Below the pieces are notes generated by a model. It saw only the letters and a list, made by a program, of their open reading frames with translations. It did no database searches and had not been told where the DNA came from. Made by a program: the position numbers and the translations under genes. A stretch of DNA of 57,464 bases from Oceaniradius stylonematis. Lineage in GTDB: Bacteria; Pseudomonadota; Alphaproteobacteria; Rhizobiales; Rhizobiaceae. Positions 2,272 to 41,949 of the stretch are shown in pieces. The stretch is from the NCBI RefSeq assembly GCF_003149475.2, contig NZ_QFWV02000004.1, positions 243,022 to 300,485 on the forward strand, given 5' to 3'. Position 1 is the stretch's first letter, and every line of letters begins with the position of its first letter.

Positions 2272-4872
2272 TCAGCCCCCGGTCTTCTTTCTGGCCAGCG
2301 CCTTGGCCTGCTTGACCCAGCCGTCCCGGTCGATCCGTCCCTTGAAGCTCAGATAGCTGTCGACCCAGTCACGCTGAGGCTTCTTCCAGGCCGCGACCTG
2401 CTCGAACGTGTAGATGCCGAGCCCGTTCAGCGTGCCTTCAAGCTTCGGGCCGACCCCGGAGATCTGCTTGAGATCGTCGGGCACGTCCGGACGTTCCATG
2501 GATGACGGACGGTCGGGATCATCGAGCGAAGACTTGCCGCCCCTGGACTTGCCGCCCCTGGACTTGGCCGCCTCGGCTTTCGCTCGCTTGGTCTTCTTGG
2601 TCGCTTTGGTCTTTGCCGACCCCGTGTCGCCGGTATCCGCGACGGCGGCGACGGCCTTGTCGCGCCTGGCATCGGCCTTCTTCTGCACGGGCGCCTTCTT
2701 GACCGCGTCCAGATCGACGATCTTGGAGGCGTCCTCGACCGAGTCCTCCTTTGCCTCGAAAGAAATCACCGGCTCCATGGACTCAAGTTCGTCGCGGGAC
2801 AGGTGGCATTTCATGAAGTGGCCTTCGCCCCATTCCACGTAACCCGGCACTTCGGTTTCGCACTTGTTGCCGGAGACGCGCTCCTTCCAGCGGCAGCGCG
2901 TCTGGAACGGGCAGCCCGGAGGCGGATTGAGCGCCGAGGGAATGTCGCCGTCCAGAACGATGTGCTTCTTCTGGACCGACGTGTCGGCGATCGGAATGGC
3001 CGACAAGAGCGCCTCGGTATAGGGATGGTAGGGCGGCGAAAAGATCTGGTCGGTCGTGCCCTGCTCGACGATGTGACCGAGATACATCACCACCACGCGG
3101 TCGGCGATGTAACGCACGACGGACAGGTCGTGGCTGATGAACAGCATGGTGGTGCGCGACTCGCGCTGAATGTCCATCAAGAGCTCTGTGACGGCCGCCT
3201 GGACCGACACGTCGAGCGCCGATACCGGCTCGTCGGCGACGACAACCTTCGGCCCGCCGGCAAAGGCGCGGGCAACGCCGATGCGCTGTTTCTGGCCGCC
3301 GGAAAGCTGACGCGGCATCCGCGTTTCGAAGGCGCGCGGCAGCTTGACCAGATCGAGCAGTTCCAGCATGCGCTCGCGCCGCTCCTCGGTCGAGTTGCCG
3401 AAATTGAACTTTTCGAGCGTGCGGATGATCTGGCTGCCGACCGAGTGGCTGGGATTGAGCGTGTCGAACGGGTTCTGGAAGACCATCTGGATCGAGGAGA
3501 CCAGATCGGCGCCGCGGTTCTCGACCTCGATGCCCTGGATCTCCCGGTTGCCGAGCGTCACGGTGCCTTCGGTTGCCGTTTCAAGCCCGAGCAGAACCTT
3601 GGCGAGCGTCGACTTTCCGCAACCCGACTCGCCGACGATGGCGACGGTTTCCGCCTCCCGCGCGGTGAACGAGATCGTCTCGTTGGCCTTGACGGTCCGG
3701 GTCTCGCCGCCGCCGAAGATCGCGTTGGCGGCCACGTCGTAATATTTCTTCAAATTGTCGATCTGCAGCACGGGCGCGCCGGGCTCGACCGGATCGTTCT
3801 GCGCGATGCCGTCGGGCATCGCCTTCCAGTCGATCTCGTCGAACCGGACACACCGGCTGTTGTGATCGTGATGACCCTTGACCGGAATCATCGAGATCGG
3901 ACCGGCATCGCACTCGCCTTCCACGAAGTGATGGCAGCGCGGGCCGAAATTGCAGCCATGGGGTCGCTCGTGCGGCAGTGGCAGCTGGCCGGGAATGGCG
4001 ATCAGCGGGCGCGAATTCTTGTCCGCGCCGGGCAAAGGGATCGATCGGAACAGGCCCTGCGTATAGGGGTGGCGCATCCGGTCGAACACATCGGCGACGT
4101 CGCCCGTCTCCACGGCCTCGCCCGAATACATCACCGAGATGCGGTCGCAGGTCTCCAGGATCAGGCCCAGATTGTGCGAGATGAACAGCATCGACATGCC
4201 GTATTTCTTGCCCAGATCCTTGACCAGCTCGACGATGCCGGCCTCGACCGTCACGTCGAGCGCGGTGGTCGGTTCGTCCAGAAGCAGAAGTTCGGGGTTG
4301 GACAGGAGTGCCATGGCGATGACGACACGCTGCTGCTGGCCGCCGGAAATCTGGTGCGGATAGGAGCTCATCACACGCTTGGGATCGGGCAGGCGCACCG
4401 CTTCGAGCATCTCGATGGAGCGGTCATAGGCCTGCTGCTTGGAAACGCCCTCATGGACGATCGGCACTTCCATAAGCTGCTGGCCGATCTTCATCGCCGG
4501 ATTGAGCGACGCCATCGGCTCCTGGTAGATCATGGCGATCTTCGATCCGCGCAGGTCGCGCAGTTCAGCATCGCTCATCTCGCCCATGTCACGGCCCTTG
4601 AAGCGGATCGTGCCGGACTTGATGTGTCCGCGGTTGCCCATGTCGCGCATGATGCCGAGCGCGACCGTCGACTTGCCGCAGCCCGATTCGCCGACAATGC
4701 CGAGCGCCTCGCCCGGCATGACCTTGCACGAATAGTCCATGACGGCGGGAATTTCGCCGGCACGGGTGTAGAACGAGATGTGCAGGTTCTCGATCTCGAG
4801 GATCGGGGTCTGGTCGGTGGCGGGCGCCGGAACGCCGCCGGTTGCGGGAGTGATTTCAGTGTTGGCTGACAT
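2272..4872 (-). CDS. Double ABC transporter ATPase (DppD-DppF type) with C-terminal NuoE-like helix-hairpin-helix tail
   Basis: The 866-residue protein contains two complete ABC ATPase domains in one chain. The first has Walker A GESGCGKST at about 61-69, signature SGGQQQRV and Walker B LLLLDEPTTALD. The second repeats GESGCGKST, has LSGGQKQRIG and ends VVADEPVSALD. Each is followed by the oligopeptide/dipeptide C-terminal Cys region (for example CPFQTRCRWKE). It would energise import through the two adjacent permeases. Unusually, a Lys/Ala-rich linker leads into a 72-residue tail (about 795-866, DLKQISGVGPKLEG to GRIDRDGWVKQAKALA) that closely resembles the tail of rhizobial NuoE. The start has a strong GGGAGG site. 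The permease stop lies 11 bp upstream. Confidence 0.93.
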   Translation of the reverse strand: MSANTEITPATGGVPAPATDQTPILEIENLHISFYTRAGEIPAVMDYSCKVMPGEALGIVGESGCGKSTVALGIMRDMGNRGHIKSGTIRFKGRDMGEMSDAELRDLRGSKIAMIYQEPMASLNPAMKIGQQLMEVPIVHEGVSKQQAYDRSIEMLEAVRLPDPKRVMSSYPHQISGGQQQRVVIAMALLSNPELLLLDEPTTALDVTVEAGIVELVKDLGKKYGMSMLFISHNLGLILETCDRISVMYSGEAVETGDVADVFDRMRHPYTQGLFRSIPLPGADKNSRPLIAIPGQLPLPHERPHGCNFGPRCHHFVEGECDAGPISMIPVKGHHDHNSRCVRFDEIDWKAMPDGIAQNDPVEPGAPVLQIDNLKKYYDVAANAIFGGGETRTVKANETISFTAREAETVAIVGESGCGKSTLAKVLLGLETATEGTVTLGNREIQGIEVENRGADLVSSIQMVFQNPFDTLNPSHSVGSQIIRTLEKFNFGNSTEERRERMLELLDLVKLPRAFETRMPRQLSGGQKQRIGVARAFAGGPKVVVADEPVSALDVSVQAAVTELLMDIQRESRTTMLFISHDLSVVRYIADRVVVMYLGHIVEQGTTDQIFSPPYHPYTEALLSAIPIADTSVQKKHIVLDGDIPSALNPPPGCPFQTRCRWKERVSGNKCETEVPGYVEWGEGHFMKCHLSRDELESMEPVISFEAKEDSVEDASKIVDLDAVKKAPVQKKADARRDKAVAAVADTGDTGSAKTKATKKTKRAKAEAAKSRGGKSRGGKSSLDDPDRPSSMERPDVPDDLKQISGVGPKLEGTLNGLGIYTFEQVAAWKKPQRDWVDSYLSFKGRIDRDGWVKQAKALARKKTGG
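2531..2560. repeat. Perfect 15-bp tandem duplication in the ATPase linker
   Basis: Two identical copies of GACTTGCCGCCCCTG lie head to tail at 2531-2545 and 2546-2560. On the minus strand they encode the SRGGK-SRGGK repeat in the Lys/Arg-rich linker between the second ATPase domain and the helix-hairpin-helix tail. The identity at every position, including wobble bases, points to a recent in-frame duplication or replication slippage. Confidence 0.9.
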
Positions 4873-4883
4873 TGTTCCCTCCC

Positions 4884-6095
4884 TCAGTCTTTCAGCGATT
4901 CTTCACGCAGCGCGTCGGCGAGAAGATTGAGGCCGAGCACGAAGCTCATCAGCGCGACGGCGGGCACCAGCGCCGGCCAGACGTAGAGCCGCAGGAGCTG
5001 CGAGCCGTCCTTGATGGCCGTGCCCCAGTCGGGGCTTTCGGGCGGCATGCCGAGCCCGAAATAGCCCAGCGTGCCCAGCAGGATCGTCGTGTAGCCGATG
5101 CGCAGACAGGCATCGACGATCAGCGGGCCGCGTGCGTTGGGCAGCACTTCCCACAGCATGATGTACCAGGGGCTTTCGCCGCGCGTCTGGGCGGCGGCGA
5201 CATAGTCGCGCGTCTTGATGTCCATGACGAGACCCCGCGTGATGCGGAACACGCCGGGTGACGATGCGAAGACGACGGCGACGAAGATGTTGAGCTGGCC
5301 CGGTTCGATCGAGATGATCTTGAAGACCGGCAGGTCGAAAAACGCCCCGACAAAGCCAAGCCCGTTGTTGCGCAGCGCCTGAACGATGAAATCGTTGGAA
5401 ACGAGCGAGATCCAGATCCATGTGCCCAGGACTATGGTCACTGCGATTGCAGGCCACATGAATTGCGGACGCGCCTGATAGCGCGTGTAGAAGAGCGTGA
5501 CGAAGAAGATGACCGGGAAGATGAAGAACAGGCCGGCCAGCGTGTAGGGGATCGGCGTCTCGGTGATGCCCGGCGTGACCAGCAGATAGAACAGAAGGAT
5601 CACCGGGAAGGCCAGAACCAGGTTGGCGATGAACGACAGGACGTTGTCGACCTGTCCGCCGTAATAGCCCGCCGGCAGGCCCAGCGTGATGCCGACCATC
5701 AATGCGAAGGCGGTGGCGGCCGGCGCGATGATCAGAACAATCTGGGAACCGTACACCATGCGGCTGAACACGTCGCGGGCCAGCTTGTCGCCGCCCAGCA
5801 GGAACGCATTGCCGGATTCAGGGTCGATGGTGCCGGGCACCGCGTTCTTGAGGATCGGCACCACCCCGATCGGGTCGAACGGCGCGATGATCGACGCGAA
5901 CAGCGCCGAGAACAGCCAGAAGCCGATAAAGACCAGGCCGGCGATCCCGACGCCGCCATCATAGAGCTGGCCGTAAAGGCCGAGCCGGTCCCGATACATG
6001 TAGCTCAGGGTGCCGATGATGATCATCGCGGCCCAGACCGGCCAGAAACGCCAGATGATCTGGATGACGATTTCGAATGTGGACAGAGTTTCCAT
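4884..6095 (-). CDS. ABC transporter permease (DppC-like)
   Basis: This 403-residue inner-membrane protein is the DppC-type permease of the importer. The N-terminal region has two hydrophobic spans (about 15-30 and 48-70) followed by a periplasmic loop with the 'LLGGDKLARDVFSRMVYG' segment seen in this family. The EAA coupling loop is near residues 310-330 (AAAQTRGESPWYIMLWEVLP), where the ATPase docks. It is longer than typical DppC (about 290-310 residues) owing to an N-terminal extension and an internal insertion at about 195-270 with additional hydrophobic segments. A clear AGGGGG site precedes the ATG. It lies 18 bp after the DppB-like gene and 11 bp before the ATPase gene. Confidence 0.92.
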   Translation of the reverse strand: METLSTFEIVIQIIWRFWPVWAAMIIIGTLSYMYRDRLGLYGQLYDGGVGIAGLVFIGFWLFSALFASIIAPFDPIGVVPILKNAVPGTIDPESGNAFLLGGDKLARDVFSRMVYGSQIVLIIAPAATAFALMVGITLGLPAGYYGGQVDNVLSFIANLVLAFPVILLFYLLVTPGITETPIPYTLAGLFFIFPVIFFVTLFYTRYQARPQFMWPAIAVTIVLGTWIWISLVSNDFIVQALRNNGLGFVGAFFDLPVFKIISIEPGQLNIFVAVVFASSPGVFRITRGLVMDIKTRDYVAAAQTRGESPWYIMLWEVLPNARGPLIVDACLRIGYTTILLGTLGYFGLGMPPESPDWGTAIKDGSQLLRLYVWPALVPAVALMSFVLGLNLLADALREESLKD

Positions 6096-6113: not shown

Positions 6114-7151
6114 TCACGAGACGCGGATGCGCGGATTGAGGAAGGCGTAGCCGACGTCGCTGAGCAGCTGGGTGACCAGAACGACGACGACGGAAACGAG
6201 CGCGCAGGCGAGCAGCAGGTCGATATCGTTGTTCGACGCTGCTTCGACCAGCGTGAAGCCAAAGCCCTGATACCGGAACATCGCCTCGACGATGACGACG
6301 CCGGTCAAAAGCCACGGGAACTGCGGCATGATCACGGTGAAGGGCGCGATCAGCGCGTTGCGCAGCGCATGCTTGATGACGACCGATGAGAAGGTCAGCC
6401 CTTTCAGGCGCGCCGTGCGGATATATTGCGCGGTCATCACCTCGGCCATCGACGCGCGCGTCATGCGGGCAATGTAGCCCATGCCGTAGATCGCCATGGT
6501 CATGACCGGCAGGGTAAAGTTGGAAAAGGTGATGCCCTCGCGCGTCGCGGTCGCGGCCGACCCGTTCAATATGCCGAGCCAGGACGCGAATATGACGGTG
6601 AAGATGACGCCGGACACATACTCGGGCGTCGCCGTCGATGCGATCGAAGCCACCGACAGACTTCGGTCGGTTCGTGACCCTTCGCGCATGCCGGCAAAAA
6701 TGCCGACGAGTAGCGCTCCGGGCACCATGACGAGCATGACATAGAACATCAGCCAGCCGGTGGCCTGAAGGGCTGGCACAAGGCGTTCGGAAACCGGCAC
6801 CTTGAAGCGTGTCGAACAGCCGAAATCGCCCTGGATGACGCCGGAAAAGCGCGCCTCGGCCGGCTCGTCGCAAAAGCGGAAGCGCGGTGTCGCCTCGCCG
6901 GTTTCAGGATCGACGAGGGGTTGCTTCTGGACGACGCCCAGCCACTGGCCGTAGCGGACGAAGAAATTGTCGCGATAGCCGTTGCGCACAAGCCAGCTTT
7001 CGATCTGCGCATCGGAGGCGCGCATGTTGGTCTGGCTGATGGACAGCTTGCGCAGATTGGGTTCGAGATTGACGAGGAAAAACACGACGAGTGTCAGGCA
7101 GAGCATGGTCAAGGCCATGATTCCCAGACGCCGGACAAAGAACGAGATCAA
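6114..7151 (-). CDS. ABC transporter permease (DppB-like), TTG start
   Basis: This inner-membrane permease partners with the DppC-like protein. From the start chosen here it has 345 residues, beginning LISFFVRRLGIMALTML, the usual DppB arrangement of a short basic stretch and then a first transmembrane helix. The frame extends upstream to another TTG at 7166, but a GGGGAG site lies 7 bases before the TTG at 7151, so the shorter form is preferred. The conserved EAA-type loop TARLKGLTFSSVVIKHALRNALIAP is near the last third. A periplasmic insert at about 45-110 (after the first helix) includes 'ASDAQIESWLVRNGYRDN', as in family members with a large first loop. Confidence 0.9.
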   Translation of the reverse strand: MISFFVRRLGIMALTMLCLTLVVFFLVNLEPNLRKLSISQTNMRASDAQIESWLVRNGYRDNFFVRYGQWLGVVQKQPLVDPETGEATPRFRFCDEPAEARFSGVIQGDFGCSTRFKVPVSERLVPALQATGWLMFYVMLVMVPGALLVGIFAGMREGSRTDRSLSVASIASTATPEYVSGVIFTVIFASWLGILNGSAATATREGITFSNFTLPVMTMAIYGMGYIARMTRASMAEVMTAQYIRTARLKGLTFSSVVIKHALRNALIAPFTVIMPQFPWLLTGVVIVEAMFRYQGFGFTLVEAASNNDIDLLLACALVSVVVVLVTQLLSDVGYAFLNPRIRVS

Positions 7152-7225
7152 GCTGCTTCTCCCCAAGACGCGCGATGGCGCGAGACGTGCAGACGGCTTC
7201 TTGCGGCCGCCTTGCCCCTGTAGCG

Positions 7226-7253
7226 AAAAGGCGCAGCCGGTTCCGGCTGCGCC
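7226..7253 (-). terminator. Attenuator-like hairpin between binding-protein and permease genes
   Basis: A perfect 11-bp inverted repeat (GGCGCAGCCGG and CCGGCTGCGCC, 7230-7240 and 7243-7253) is followed on the minus strand by TTTTC. It lies in the 118-bp gap after the binding-protein stop. ABC operons often carry such a partial terminator so that the binding protein is made in excess over the membrane parts. Terminator strength is not known. Confidence 0.75.
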
Positions 7254-7269
7254 CTGGTTTCAGGCCCCG

Positions 7270-8916
7270 TCAGGTGTCGAGCCAGACATCGGCCAGATCC
7301 AGCTCGTAGGTCGGATGCTGGTAGTAGTTCTGGACGGTTGCGTCGTTGAAGTTGAACAGCGAACGCCAGTAGGGCTGGATGATAATGCCCGATTCCTGCA
7401 GCATCCGCTGGATATCGACCATCAGTTCACGCCGCTGGTCGGCGTCGGCGATCGCCAGGGCCTGGGTCAGCTTCTCGTCGAACTCCGGGTTCGAATAGCC
7501 GGCTTCGTTCCAGGCTTCGCCGGACCGGTAGGCGAGCGCAAGGATCTGCACGCCGAGCGGGCGGTGGTTCCAGTTGGTGGACGAGTAGGGATATTTCGTC
7601 CAGTCGTTCCAGAAGGTCGAGCCGGGGAGCACCGTGCGCTTGACCTTGAACCCGGCCTCGCGAAGCTGGGCCGCCACCGCATCGGTGGTGTTCTTGCGGT
7701 AGTCGTCGTCGATCGAGATGATCTCATGCTCGAAATCCATCTGGCCGGCTTCTTCCATCAGCGCCTTTGCGGCGTCGATGTCGCGGCTGATCGGCGGCAG
7801 TTCGGCATATTCGGGGTGGATCGGTGCCACGTGGTGGTTCTCGGCCACCGTGCCCTGACCGGCAATGCCAAGCTGCAGAACGACATTGTTGTCGACGGCG
7901 AGCTGGAGCGCCTGACGCACGCGCTGATCGTCATAGGGCGGGTTGTTGACGTTGGTGCGGACGACAACGGTCGCGCCGGTGACGGCTTCGTTCTTGGTCA
8001 GACCAAGGCCCTCGAAAATGTCGACGAAGTCGCCGGTCACCTCGTAGTTGGCCTGTACCTCGCCCGACTCGAACGCGGAGACCTGGGCCGACTGGTCGGT
8101 GCCGTAGTCGACGAAGACCACCTCGTCGAGATGCGCCTCGCCGCCCCACCAGGCACCGTCCTCGCGGCGCTTGTACTCGGCACGGTCGCCGATCGAGAAC
8201 GAGACCAGTTCGAACGGACCGGTGCCGATCGGATTGTCGACCAGTTCGCCCGTGTCCGCATAGGAGGGGTGAACGACCAAGGCCGGATAATCGGCCATGC
8301 CGGCGATCAGCGTAATGTCCGGCTGCGGCAGCATCAGCTTGACGGTGAAATCGTCGACCCGGACGATTGCGCCCTCGGCGGCCTTGCCGGTCTCGTCGTC
8401 GATGATCGCCGCAAAGCGCGCGGCCATCGAATTGCCCTCGACGTCGCGTTCGCACCAGCGCTCGATGTTGAAGATAACGTCGTCGGCGTTGAAGTCGTCG
8501 CCATTGTTCCACTTGACGCCCTGCCGCACGCGCAGCGTGTATTCGGTGGCGTCGTCGTTGATCTCCCAGCTTTCGAGCAGCATCGGCTCGAAGGTGAAGT
8601 CGACGGTGTATTTGACCAGCGGCTCAAGGAACTGACGGCCCAGATTGCCCATTTGCGACCAGTCAAAGGTGCGCGGATCCTTCAGTTCGCGCACGTCCAT
8701 GGCGATGGTCAGCACGCCGCCTTTCTTGGCTTCCTGCGCCAACGCCCTTCCCGGCGCTGCGATGCCGATCATCGAATAGGCGGCGGCGGTGGTGGCGCCG
8801 AACGTCGTTGCCAGGGCGAGGAATTCGCGCCGATCCATCTTGCCGGCCTTGGTGTCCGCGGCCAGCTTCTCGATGTGCTCGGGCATACGCTCGCCGTTGC
8901 GTTTGAAAAATGCCAT
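7270..8916 (-). CDS. Extracellular solute-binding protein, family 5 (peptide/nickel type), Tat-exported
   Basis: The 548-residue protein is the periplasmic receptor of the importer (SBP_bac_5). The start at 8916 is chosen because GGGAGG lies 7 bases upstream; the frame could extend 21 codons further. An N-terminal Tat signal is visible: [10 protein letters not shown] with the twin arginines at 29-30, then a hydrophobic Ala-rich stretch and a likely cleavage ALA-QE after residue 60. Tat export of binding proteins of this family is common in rhizobia. Mature-domain signatures include '[18 protein letters not shown]' and '[13 protein letters not shown]'. Ligand unknown; the MmgE/PrpD gene at the operon end hints at a carboxylated compound rather than simple peptides, which is inference only. 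Confidence 0.92.
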
Positions 8917-38784: not shown

Positions 38785-39462
38785 TCAAACTCCCAAAGCG
38801 GCGGTCTGCCGCTGTTCGCGCGCCTCGGCGACCGCCAGAAAAAACGCCTCGATCAGGCCCGCGTCCTTGATGCCCGGCGCGCTTTCGACGCCCGAGGACA
38901 CGTCGATCCCCGGCGGGCCGGCGATCCCGAGCGCCTCGCCCACATTGCCGGCATCGAGCCCGCCGGACAGCATATAGTCCGTGTCCGCGTCAAGCGAGGC
39001 AAGGAGCGACCAATCGAAGCTGACGCCATTGCCTCCGGGAAGGTCCGATCCTTTTGGCGGATTGGCGTCGAGCAGGAACCTGTCGGCGACGCCGCGATAG
39101 GCGTCCAGCTTTTTCAGGTCATCGCGACCGGAAATGGCGAACGCCTTCATCACCGGCAGGCCATGGCGCGCCCTGACCGCGGCGACCCGTTCGGGGCTTT
39201 CGCTTCCATGCAATTGCAACATGTCGGGCCGGACCGTCCGGACGATCCGGTCGAGCATGGCGTCGTCCGCATCGACCGTTACGGCGACCGTCACAACGCC
39301 GGCCGCCTTGGCCCGCGCTGCCAATGGCGCCGCAGCGTCCGGCGCCACGTTGCGCGGCGATCTCTCGAAGAAGATGAAACCGGCATGGCTCGCGCCGCCG
39401 GCTGCCGCCGCGTCGATGGCGTCCGGTGTCGAAAGTCCGCAGATCTTGATGTCGAGGCTCAT
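38785..39462 (-). CDS. trpF: Phosphoribosylanthranilate isomerase
   Basis: TrpF isomerises phosphoribosylanthranilate in tryptophan synthesis. The 225-residue protein has the N-terminal [19 protein letters not shown] with the catalytic Cys, 'LQLHGSE', the catalytic-acid region '[19 protein letters not shown]' and the C-terminal '[11 protein letters not shown]' phosphate-binding site. It is the first gene of the trpF-trpB-flavoprotein-arsC-trpA-accD-folC operon. Its promoter must lie in the 167-bp region shared with the divergent RiPP-like genes. Confidence 0.96.
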
Positions 39463-39555
39463 GCAGGCGCCTTAGCGCGCACGGTTCAGCGAGTCGAGCA
39501 TTTGATCAGCCCGGCGCCATGCCGGACGAGGTCGCCGACTGGTCGATCTATTTGT

Positions 39556-39580
39556 GAAAGAGAACAAAATTGACTCTTTC
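39556..39580 (+). promoter_or_regulatory. Candidate operator/promoter of the RiPP-like cassette
   Basis: A perfect inverted repeat GAAAGAG-11 bp-CTCTTTC (39556-39562 and 39574-39580) lies in an AT-rich patch between trpF and the precursor gene. It overlaps TTGACT (39570-39575), which matches a -35 element; no good -10 is obvious at the right spacing. Arms whose centres are about 18 bp apart suit a dimeric repressor or activator. Confidence 0.45.
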
Positions 39581-39629
39581 CAATACTTGTATCACCCTCA
39601 GAATGTTTCCGTTAAAGGAGATTTGGTCC

Positions 39630-39905
39630 ATGCCTAAAAGAGAAATCACTGCACGAAAGCTGATTGGCGAAAAGCGCTATGCCGAACTCAAAGAGCGCTA
39701 CGATGCGTTTGTCGGTCAGGCGATCGTCGACAAACTCGTGGAGCCGGACATGCTGTCGGGCTTCCCTCCCTTGGGGATTCACGCCGAAGGGCCGCACTAC
39801 GAGCAGGAAGGCGGCGATTACGATCAGTCCACCGGCGGCAATCACAGCCAGACCGGCGGCGGCAGCTACAAGCAAGCGGCTCCCAAGACCGAAGAGTTCC
39901 GCTAA
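39630..39905 (+). CDS. Candidate RiPP precursor peptide with four [Y/H]-x-Q motifs
   Basis: This 91-residue peptide has no recognised enzymatic domain. Residues 1-50 are charged and probably helical (MPKREITARKLIGEKRYAEL), like a leader. Residues 51-85 are Gly-rich and carry four regularly spaced three-residue motifs: Y57-E-Q59, Y64-D-Q66, H72-S-Q74 and Y80-K-Q82, at steps of 7, 8 and 8 residues. An aromatic residue two places before a polar residue is the substrate pattern of three-residue cyclophane-forming radical SAM enzymes, and such an enzyme is encoded 15 bp downstream. AAGGAG lies 9 bases before the ATG at 39630; the frame extends 20 codons upstream without a better signal. The RiPP role is inferred from arrangement and motif pattern. 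Confidence 0.78.
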   Translation: MPKREITARKLIGEKRYAELKERYDAFVGQAIVDKLVEPDMLSGFPPLGIHAEGPHYEQEGGDYDQSTGGNHSQTGGGSYKQAAPKTEEFR

Positions 39906-39920
39906 GCCGGCCGCGCCACA

Positions 39921-41171
39921 ATGCCCCCTGGTCTGACCGGCGCGGCCACGACGCGACGCCATGCGGCCGTGCCCTCGATCCGGACGCTTCAGGTCGTGTT
40001 GAAGGTGGCCGAGCGCTGCAACATCAACTGCAGCTACTGCTATTATTTCAACATGGGCGAGACATCGGCGCTGGACCGTCCGGCGCTGATCAGTCTCGAT
40101 ACGGTGGCCTCGCTCGCGCGCTGGATACGTGAGGGTTGCGCGGAACTGGGCATCGGGCGCGTGATGGTCTCGTTCCACGGCGGCGAGCCGCTGCTCCTCA
40201 AGCCCGCGCGCTTCTCCGCGGCGTGCACGCTCCTGCGCGAAACGATCGAGCCGGTCGCCAAGGTTTCCTTTGCCGTGCAGACCAACGGCACGATTCTCAG
40301 CCGGCAATGGCTCGATATCTTCGCCGAGCACCGCATCCATGTCGGCGTCAGCATCGATGGCGACCGCGGCGCCAATGACCGTTTCCGCCTGACCAAGGAC
40401 GGACGGTCTACCTTCGACACGGTCGACGAGACGATCCGGACCCTGGTTGCCTGGTCCGGCGGCAATCAGGCTCTCGGCCCGTCGACGATCTCCGTTCTTG
40501 ATCATCGCAACGACTATGGCGCCATCTATCGCTACCTGCGGTCGCTCGGCATCATGAACATGAGCTTTCTCCTGCCCGACCGCAGCCACGATCAGGGGTT
40601 CAGTGCCGACGATGGCGATGCGGAGAGCTATGGCCGGTGCCTGTCGGATCTGTTCCAAGCCTGGTTCGCCGAGGACAATCCCGATGTGAATGTGCGGCAG
40701 GTCAAGGAGGTCATCCGGCATTTCCAGAACACGGAAAAAGGCCCGCCCGAACCGCCGGGCGAAGACAAGATCGCCTACCAGATCATCGTCGCGCAGAGCG
40801 ACGGAACCGTGTCGGTCGACGATTCGCTCATCCCCGCCCTTGACTGGTTCAAGGGCACGCCACGCGTGGCCATCGCGGACACGTCGCTGCCCGACTTCCT
40901 CGCCGATCGGGTTTTTGGAGAGATCCGGCGCGCAAACAACACGATCGCCACCGCCTGCCGAGACTGCGATTGGCGCGGCGTGTGCCGCAGCGGCGATCTC
41001 GAAAACCGTTACGCCGACGGCATGGGGTTCGACAATCCGTCCGTCTACTGCAGCGGTTACCAGCGGTTTTTCACCGACGTCTGTGGAACGCTGCTTGCCA
41101 ACAACTATCCGGTCGATCTGCTGGAAGATCGCATCGAGCAATCATTCGCCGCGGTCGACGCGCATGTTTGA
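39921..41171 (+). CDS. Radical SAM/SPASM peptide maturase (cyclophane-forming type, putative)
   Basis: The 416-residue protein has the radical SAM cluster motif C33-x3-C37-x2-C40 (RCNINCSYCYYF), then SFHGGEPLLLKP, 'VQTNGTIL' and 'GVSIDGDRGANDRFR'. A C-terminal SPASM-like region has C346-x2-C349-x5-C355, C377 and C388 with GDLENRYADGMGFDNPSVYC, the arrangement of maturases that crosslink peptide side chains. It probably binds auxiliary iron-sulfur clusters and installs crosslinks on the preceding peptide. Public databases have named several cyclophane-forming maturase families (for example FxsB, XyeB, GrrM/OscB, YhhB), and I cannot tell which is nearest. No good ribosome site precedes the ATG, so translation may depend on coupling to the precursor 15 bp upstream. 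Confidence 0.88.
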   Translation: MPPGLTGAATTRRHAAVPSIRTLQVVLKVAERCNINCSYCYYFNMGETSALDRPALISLDTVASLARWIREGCAELGIGRVMVSFHGGEPLLLKPARFSAACTLLRETIEPVAKVSFAVQTNGTILSRQWLDIFAEHRIHVGVSIDGDRGANDRFRLTKDGRSTFDTVDETIRTLVAWSGGNQALGPSTISVLDHRNDYGAIYRYLRSLGIMNMSFLLPDRSHDQGFSADDGDAESYGRCLSDLFQAWFAEDNPDVNVRQVKEVIRHFQNTEKGPPEPPGEDKIAYQIIVAQSDGTVSVDDSLIPALDWFKGTPRVAIADTSLPDFLADRVFGEIRRANNTIATACRDCDWRGVCRSGDLENRYADGMGFDNPSVYCSGYQRFFTDVCGTLLANNYPVDLLEDRIEQSFAAVDAHV

Positions 41172-41205
41172 ATGAAGCCTGGCGTGGCCGGCACGGTGGG
41201 GCCGG

Positions 41206-41949
41206 TCAGAACACGATCGACTGCAGTTTCGACCCGTTGCGCTTGAGCCAGGCCTTGCAGCGCTTCGTGTCCGGGCAGAGCTCCTCGCACAGCGCCCAGA
41301 AGCGCGCGCCGTGGTTCATCTCGCGCAGATGCGCCACCTCGTGGGCGACCAGATAGTCGATCACCCGCGGCGGCGCCATGGCGATCCGCCAGGAAAAGGA
41401 CAGGTTGCCCTCCGACGAGCAGGAACCCCAGCGGCTGACCGTGTCCTTGAACCGGACCGCGCGCGCCGGCCGGCCGACGGTGGCGGCATGGCGGGCCACC
41501 AGCGGCTCGATGCGCTCCCTGGCGGTCTTCTTCAGAAAATCGGCGACACGGCGCGGCAAATGTTCCGGCGCGCCGAAGACGACCAGTTCGGGGCCGTTCG
41601 CCCCGTCCTCGATCCGCGTGACGCCGCGGCCGGGCCGGTGGACGATCAGATGGTTGACGCCCAGCACCGGCAGCTTAATGCCCGGCCGCACCTGCGGGCG
41701 ATCGGGCATCTTGGCGATCTTGCCGGCGAGCCAGCCCTCGTGACGGGCCAGAAACCGGTCGATCTCCGCTTGCGCCATGCCGGGCGGCACGGTGACCTTC
41801 AGACCGCGATCGCCGGGCTGTATGCGCAGCGTCAGCCGCTTGGCGCGGGGGTTTTCGACGATCGAGAGCGGCAGCGTCCGGCCAGCCACCTGGTGGCTGT
41901 CCGGACGTTGCTCGTGTCGGCGCCGTGCGCGCGTCAGGCCGAAAACCAT
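41206..41949 (-). CDS. YgjP/SprT-type zinc metallopeptidase (M48-like, DUF45)
   Basis: The 247-residue protein is a small cytoplasmic zinc metallopeptidase with the HExxH site in 'YLVAHEVAHLREMNHGARFW', the usual DUF45/YgjP signature, and the family segment 'SRWGSCSSEGNLSFSWRIAMAP' before it. It has no signal peptide. Its gene converges on the maturase gene with a 34-bp gap and is common in rhizobia without any RiPP cluster, so a role as leader peptidase is possible but not supported by operon structure. Confidence 0.88.
   Translation of the reverse strand: MVFGLTRARRRHEQRPDSHQVAGRTLPLSIVENPRAKRLTLRIQPGDRGLKVTVPPGMAQAEIDRFLARHEGWLAGKIAKMPDRPQVRPGIKLPVLGVNHLIVHRPGRGVTRIEDGANGPELVVFGAPEHLPRRVADFLKKTARERIEPLVARHAATVGRPARAVRFKDTVSRWGSCSSEGNLSFSWRIAMAPPRVIDYLVAHEVAHLREMNHGARFWALCEELCPDTKRCKAWLKRNGSKLQSIVF

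Follow-up and report, generated by a model that had tools for sequence, protein, structure and literature searches.

A two-gene cassette in Oceaniradius stylonematis that probably encodes a triceptide with glutamine as the predicted acceptor

The DNA analyzed here (the window) is a stretch of 57,464 nucleotides from Oceaniradius stylonematis, in which a small open reading frame on the forward strand (positions 39630 to 39905) encodes a putative precursor peptide of 91 residues. Translation of this frame confirmed the layout described in a first-pass annotation of the DNA, with four [Y/H]-x-Q motifs at steps of 7, 8 and 8 residues behind a charged N-terminal half. The motifs are Y57-E-Q59 (39798 to 39806), Y64-D-Q66 (39819 to 39827), H72-S-Q74 (39843 to 39851) and Y80-K-Q82 (39867 to 39875), and they are preceded by a conserved leader segment, GQAIVDKLVEP, at residues 29 to 39 (39714 to 39746). 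The strong ribosome-binding site reported in the same annotation was seen as the Shine-Dalgarno sequence AAAGGAG at 39614 to 39620, nine bases 5' of the ATG. An alternative TTG start at 39570, 5' of the ATG, would give a protein of 111 residues, but the ATG at 39630 is favored because of its Shine-Dalgarno site and because the homologous genes in two other genomes of the genus (loci L004 and L005) have similar starts. The sequence TTGACTC at 39570 to 39576 is kept 5' of the precursor in all three carrier loci of the genus (the window, L004 and L005) and is possibly a promoter element; a consensus scan of 39440 to 41260 found no sigma-70 promoters. When the residues of the 91-residue precursor were shuffled, four or more [YHFW]xQ motifs appeared in 1 of 2000 trials. 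Across all six frames of the window, a triple of [YH]xQ motifs with gaps of 2 to 9 residues was found in the precursor frame only, and chance pairs were found at three other places (46100 on the forward strand, 14359 and 22890 on the reverse strand).

The gene for a radical SAM/SPASM maturase of 416 residues (39921 to 41171, forward strand; NCBIfam, Pfam and structure-profile matches) begins fifteen bases 3' of the precursor gene. The precursor gene thus has a neighbor from the cyclophane-forming radical SAM superfamily, as the first-pass annotation had supposed. The ligands of the radical SAM cluster, C33-x3-C37-x2-C40 (40017 to 40040), and those of a SPASM-type auxiliary cluster, C346-x2-C349-x5-C355-x21-C377 (40956 to 41051), are both invariant in the 14 aligned members of the enzyme clade described below and in 12 outgroup maturases. 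The enzyme matched Radical_SAM (PF04055) in Pfam, and the best NCBIfam model was XyeB (TIGR04496; 251.7 bits against a cut-off of 450), followed by YhhB (NF041707; 244.1 bits, cut-off 445) and FxsB (TIGR04269; 235.1 bits, cut-off 370); AmcB (NF041718, cut-off 425) scored 98.3 bits. Since the score lay under every one of these curated cut-offs, the reaction of the maturase cannot be read from a family name. By sequence, the nearest solved structure was that of ChlB (9gm3; E = 2.3e-35 for the single protein and 1.7e-55 for the profile), and identity to the 12 other maturases compared was 25.5 to 30.9%.

The cassette is flanked by trpF and a gene for a YgjP-like metallopeptidase, neither of which is an exporter. 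The gap between the YgjP-like gene and trpF is 1743 bases in the window and holds both cassette genes, whereas in two other genomes of the genus it is 41 bases (G003) and 97 bases (G002), with the cassette absent between the two genes. A precursor search of both of these genomes found no copy elsewhere, and the precursor is carried by three of the five genomes of the genus. The YgjP-like metallopeptidase was considered as a leader peptidase and rejected, because its position is unchanged in genomes that lack the cassette. The GC contents of the precursor (0.587) and enzyme (0.631) genes are exceeded by those of the flanks (0.671 and 0.694). As to flanking repeats that might mark mobility, the segments 39451 to 39640 and 41151 to 41260 share no 9-mer in direct or inverted orientation.

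Homologous loci were collected by a scan of genome contigs for the enzyme, run on six 8-residue patterns, which returned a non-exhaustive set of 13 loci with enzymes 46 to 79% identical over the best segment. Besides the two genomes of the same genus (L004 and L005), in which the precursor homologues are 78% identical, these came from two Thioalkalivibrio and three Nonomuraea genomes, from Enhygromyxa, Colwellia and Phenylobacterium, and from metagenome-assembled genomes (MAGs) of Planctomycetota, Rhodobacteraceae and a gammaproteobacterium. A [Y/H]xQ repeat frame lay upstream of the enzyme in all 13. Plasmids were also scanned: the enzyme query returned 23 records, of which 13 were examined, yielding one further member, the Pseudoalteromonas locus L018 (enzyme 36.7% identical), again with an upstream [Y/H]xQ repeat frame; the records outside those 13 include a second one from Pseudoalteromonas (H2) with a score equal to that of L018. 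The precursor query, at E = 0.001, matched no plasmid, though L018 exists there, and no relative was found when viral contigs were scanned with the enzyme alignment. The loci with the cassette span four phyla.

In 14 of the 15 loci the precursor ends at most about 0.5 kb before the enzyme. The exception is Enhygromyxa (L012), whose precursor ends near position 3484, about 1.45 kb before the enzyme frame, has three motifs only and lacks the usual leader segment. In this locus (3300 to 4940), the precursor continues past the core with an extra segment, and the gene for an HExxH protein separates precursor and enzyme. At L016 the enzyme frame is broken (3264 to 4503) and the precursor frame is open; the sequence would fit either a pseudogene or an assembly error. 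The Colwellia (L013, 4528 to 4890) and Phenylobacterium (L014, 4566 to 4907) precursors extend roughly 30 to 40 residues past the last motif. The precursor profile A2, whose rows were supplied by 14 of the 15 genomes or records (all except L012, itself matched weakly at E = 8.8e-6), matched once in every one of the 15, with no second copy. Genome samples searched with precursor profiles returned known carriers only: 1 of 385 for the class (profile A1, E = 1e-4) and, with A2 at E = 0.001, 1 of 398 for the phylum and 1 of 180, 2 of 47, 1 of 246, 1 of 149, 1 of 235 and 1 of 246 in further draws. These draws were partial, that of 180 genomes evidently being without two other Nonomuraea carriers (G803 and G808). 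From these samples, the precursor family is rare or patchily distributed, unless divergent members escape the profile. Its thin spread over four phyla suggests horizontal spread.

Each of the 15 precursors has 3 to 5 core motifs. Of the total of 63, Tyr is the first residue in 53 and His in 10; FNQ in the L018 leader, which would be a sixty-fourth match, was excluded from this core count. Thirteen different residues, W, I, G, R and D among them, occur at the middle position. In an alignment of 14 precursors, with L012 left out, Y57, Q59, Y64, Q66, Y80 and Q82 were invariant, so that motifs 1, 2 and 4 keep both Tyr and Gln in all rows. Position 72 is H in 7 of the 14 rows and Y in 6, and Q74 is kept in 13; the fourteenth (L018) has YTQ one column out of register, and with this row re-registered, every one of the 14 precursors has H or Y together with Q at motif 3. 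Conservation of the Y/H and Q positions in homologues beside the enzyme, on which the first-pass annotation had made its proposal depend, was found in all 14 other loci. The same positions are unchanged between the window and L004 precursors, in which 22 of 91 codons differ by amino-acid-changing substitutions and 25 by silent ones; the changes D65E and S73T fall on middle residues. In the leader segment (consensus GQAIxDGLxxP), P39 is invariant in the 14 rows of A2 while G29 and I32 each reach 90% or more, and residues 29 to 39 are probably the recognition site for the enzyme.

Glycine-, serine- and glutamine-rich repeats are frequent in secreted and structural proteins. A low-complexity, Gly-rich protein could have come to lie beside the enzyme by chance, with repeats that are not substrate sites, but this is very improbable: the repeat frame accompanies the enzyme in 15 of 15 loci of its clade, whereas close [YH]xQ triples occurred at none of the 12 outgroup maturase loci, and no second precursor copy was present in any of the 15 genomes or records. 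In a control of 27 sources (286,570 bases, six frames), such triples were confined to the 15 precursors, with chance pairs in several of the sources. One outgroup locus, L030 from plasmid p_2 of Rhizobium lusitanum, encodes at 1778 to 2920 a protein of 380 residues with seven HDQ motifs (mostly within MHDQTHSE) and one HSQ on a Gly-rich background, directly 5' of a radical SAM gene and an HEXXH modification gene. Its HxQ repeats are too widely spaced for the triple-motif control, and HxQ is therefore not wholly private to the clade. This protein is perhaps another His-x-Gln substrate, of a different enzyme clade.

The enzymes were placed in a tree of 26 sequences, 14 of them from [Y/H]xQ loci (L016, with its broken frame, was left out). 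These 14 formed one clade with support of 98/96, neighbored by a Paracoccus enzyme and by XyeB, which is the nearest named branch. Because five outgroup branches were flagged as long and unusual composition was noted in five rows (two from the clade), the branching order outside the clade is unsure. Thirteen residues were listed as invariant in 10 clade members and rare in 12 outsiders, among them Y42, C102, P305, W309, D359, E361 and N362. The last three sit inside the SPASM ligand stretch (40956 to 41051), and the outsiders have P at 361 in 7 of 12 and H at 362 in 9 of 12. By this comparison of sequences, the clade-marking residues are candidates for determinants of substrate choice.

In the available text of PMC12257519, triceptide enzymes are described as taking a hydrogen from an aliphatic residue, after which the carbon radical is added to an aromatic ring. 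Rings from residue i to residue i+2 are listed, in the portion of PMC11002830 at hand, with Trp, Phe, Tyr and His as donors and Arg, Asn, Asp, Ser and Ala as acceptors. The gene pair of the window has the corresponding parts: CxxxCxxC and SPASM cysteines in an enzyme with kinship to XyeB, FxsB and GrrM, a precursor beside that enzyme, and an aromatic-x-X (i, i+2) core motif with a free middle position. We consider it likely, from these sequence features, that the pair is the cassette of a triceptide subfamily with Gln as the acceptor and Tyr, or sometimes His, as the donor. The reading of each motif as one ring, put forward in the first-pass annotation, holds as far as the radical SAM neighbor and the conserved Y/H and Q positions are concerned; its view of His as an unusual donor does not, since His-to-Ala rings made by HaaB and ScaB and Tyr- and His-to-Arg rings made by YhhB are reported in the same portion of PMC11002830.

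In the proposed pathway, the N-terminal half of the precursor would serve as the leader that delivers the core to the neighboring radical SAM/SPASM maturase. By way of a 5'-deoxyadenosyl radical, the maturase would abstract a hydrogen at the Gln beta carbon of every [Y/H]-x-Q motif and link this carbon, in a C(sp2)-C(sp3) bond, to the aromatic ring of the donor (Tyr or His) that precedes the Gln by two positions. Both the bond and its position are drawn from the logic of known three-residue cyclophane enzymes with other acceptors, and Gln could instead be a recognition residue and not the bonded one. Four motifs would give four rigid rings with flexible Gly-rich links between them and a loss of about 2 Da for each, 8 Da in total. 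Where related clusters include a JmjC-type 2-oxoglutarate oxygenase, this enzyme probably adds hydroxyl groups to the product.

The enzyme might modify the motifs by some other radical reaction, such as an ether to the Tyr oxygen, a bond to another Gln carbon, or oxidation or epimerization with no crosslink. The evidence is all from sequence, the enzyme is as distant from other maturases as noted above and has invariant residues of its own, and the related DarE forms an ether link according to the accessible part of PMC9055067. We nonetheless regard such a reaction as rather improbable, because motifs with positions i and i+2 fixed and the position between them free are characteristic of three-residue cyclophanes in the available text of PMC11002830, and the nearest named families make such rings. 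Moreover, His, which replaces Tyr at motif 3, has no phenol oxygen, and this speaks against an ether through that atom as the reaction common to the motifs. It is somewhat less unlikely, but still doubtful, that only some of the motifs are crosslinked, with the His motif or one of the end motifs skipped. The varying number of core motifs and the looser spacing at the first motif of L006, L007, L013 and L018 would fit such partial crosslinking, and the conservation of the donor and Gln positions of all four motifs across the 14 aligned precursors, with L018 re-registered, weighs against it.

Among known systems, XyeA/XyeB resembles the window pair in that a small precursor lies directly 5' of a radical SAM/SPASM enzyme. 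XyeA differs in having WVN, FAR and WDK motifs where the window has Tyr/His-x-Gln; the 91-residue precursor contains no Trp and so is not of the XyeA type with Trp motifs. The XyeA locus also has a gene for an HlyD-type adaptor and a peptidase-ABC transporter downstream, whereas the window pair has no adjoining exporter. YhhA/YhhB/YhhC is similar in its Tyr and His donors (PMC11002830, in the portion at hand) and in the oxygenase partner YhhC of its Vibrio cluster, in place of which relatives of the window have a JmjC_2 oxygenase. It differs in its Arg acceptor (YDR and HNR), as the window motifs end in Gln and do not follow Tyr/His-x-Arg, and in having one short motif cluster as opposed to Gly-spaced repeats; three YhhB enzymes were 26.9 to 27.5% identical to the window maturase. 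ChlB shares the same four SPASM cysteines and, by the reference title "multiple cyclophane synthase," the only part of that source considered here, would form several rings on one peptide. However, the limited record available describes it as fused to an HExxH hydroxylase, whereas the window maturase stands alone, and it has PHRY where the window maturase has ENRY. HaaA/HaaB and ScaB share the His donor and the three-residue ring (PMC11002830, likewise from the portion at hand), and HaaB is annotated as a member of the FxsB family; HaaA/HaaB differ in their Ala acceptor (HQA in HaaA) and in their partners HaaT and HaaN.

The neighbors of the enzyme in other loci were surveyed by a Pfam scan of 26 selected proteins. 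A JmjC_2-type gene adjoined the enzyme in 5 of the 15 loci. In three Nonomuraea loci (L008, L010 and L015) and one Phenylobacterium locus (L014), this protein starts at the end of the enzyme; PF08007 was called by Pfam for L008, where the gene occupies 6164 to 7345, and for L014, and L010 and L015 were assigned by 85 to 94% identity. The Nonomuraea and Phenylobacterium proteins are 44% identical to each other, and the fifth, in Colwellia, is a convergently transcribed PF08007 protein with 25% identity. For a JmjC hydroxylase in another RiPP pathway there is BipG of biphenomycin, which is headed as an ornithine hydroxylase in the excerpts available from PMC12257519 and PMC12707348. An HExxH protein adjoined the enzyme in L012 and L018; these proteins share 22% identity across 187 residues (E = 3e-11, searched in a database of two sequences) and, judged by their N termini, may be secreted. 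A gene of the trypsin family lies about 0.9 kb 5' of the L018 precursor, and either its product or the HExxH protein could process the peptide. At the Thioalkalivibrio loci (L006 and L007), type II toxin-antitoxin modules (YefM/YoeB-like, and HigB-like with an HTH protein) surround the cassette, in a setting that resembles an island or cassette array. In the Nonomuraea loci (L008, L010 and L015), two small frames, one of them Cys-rich, lie 5' of the precursor at about 3950 to 4700; neither of the two in L010 reached a Pfam cut-off.

Triceptides are a known kind of peptide, and Tyr and His donors have already been published. A [YH]xQ subgroup may be contained in a published survey of triceptide precursors and so not be new, an outcome that we hold to be quite possible, if short of an even chance: a 2022 survey reportedly lists several thousand precursors. 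Against this, searches with the window precursor gave no match in NCBIfam at E values up to 1 or in Pfam at E values up to 0.1, and the portion of PMC11002830 at hand names no Gln acceptor. Neither a Tyr/His-x-Gln cyclophane nor a Gln acceptor was found among the literature matches listed, which comprised partial texts and had the primary triceptide surveys outside their scope. The chances are about balanced that the cassette represents an undescribed subfamily, in which a stand-alone enzyme would form serial Tyr-to-Gln and His-to-Gln cyclophanes on Gly-spaced repeats, sometimes followed by JmjC hydroxylation. As a bare two-gene cassette in the window, with no adjoining exporter or dedicated protease, it may produce a peptide that acts inside the cell or borrows general secretion.

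If this reading is correct, Gln would be added to the acceptors of three-residue cyclophane chemistry, and one enzyme would take both Tyr and His in register with a variable middle residue between donor and acceptor, which would be useful for the construction of rigid peptide rods. The loci in four phyla, together with the clade-marking residues of the enzyme, would form a test set for acceptor choice. Finally, the bare two-gene form in O. stylonematis would raise the question of what role such a peptide has in a locus without export genes.
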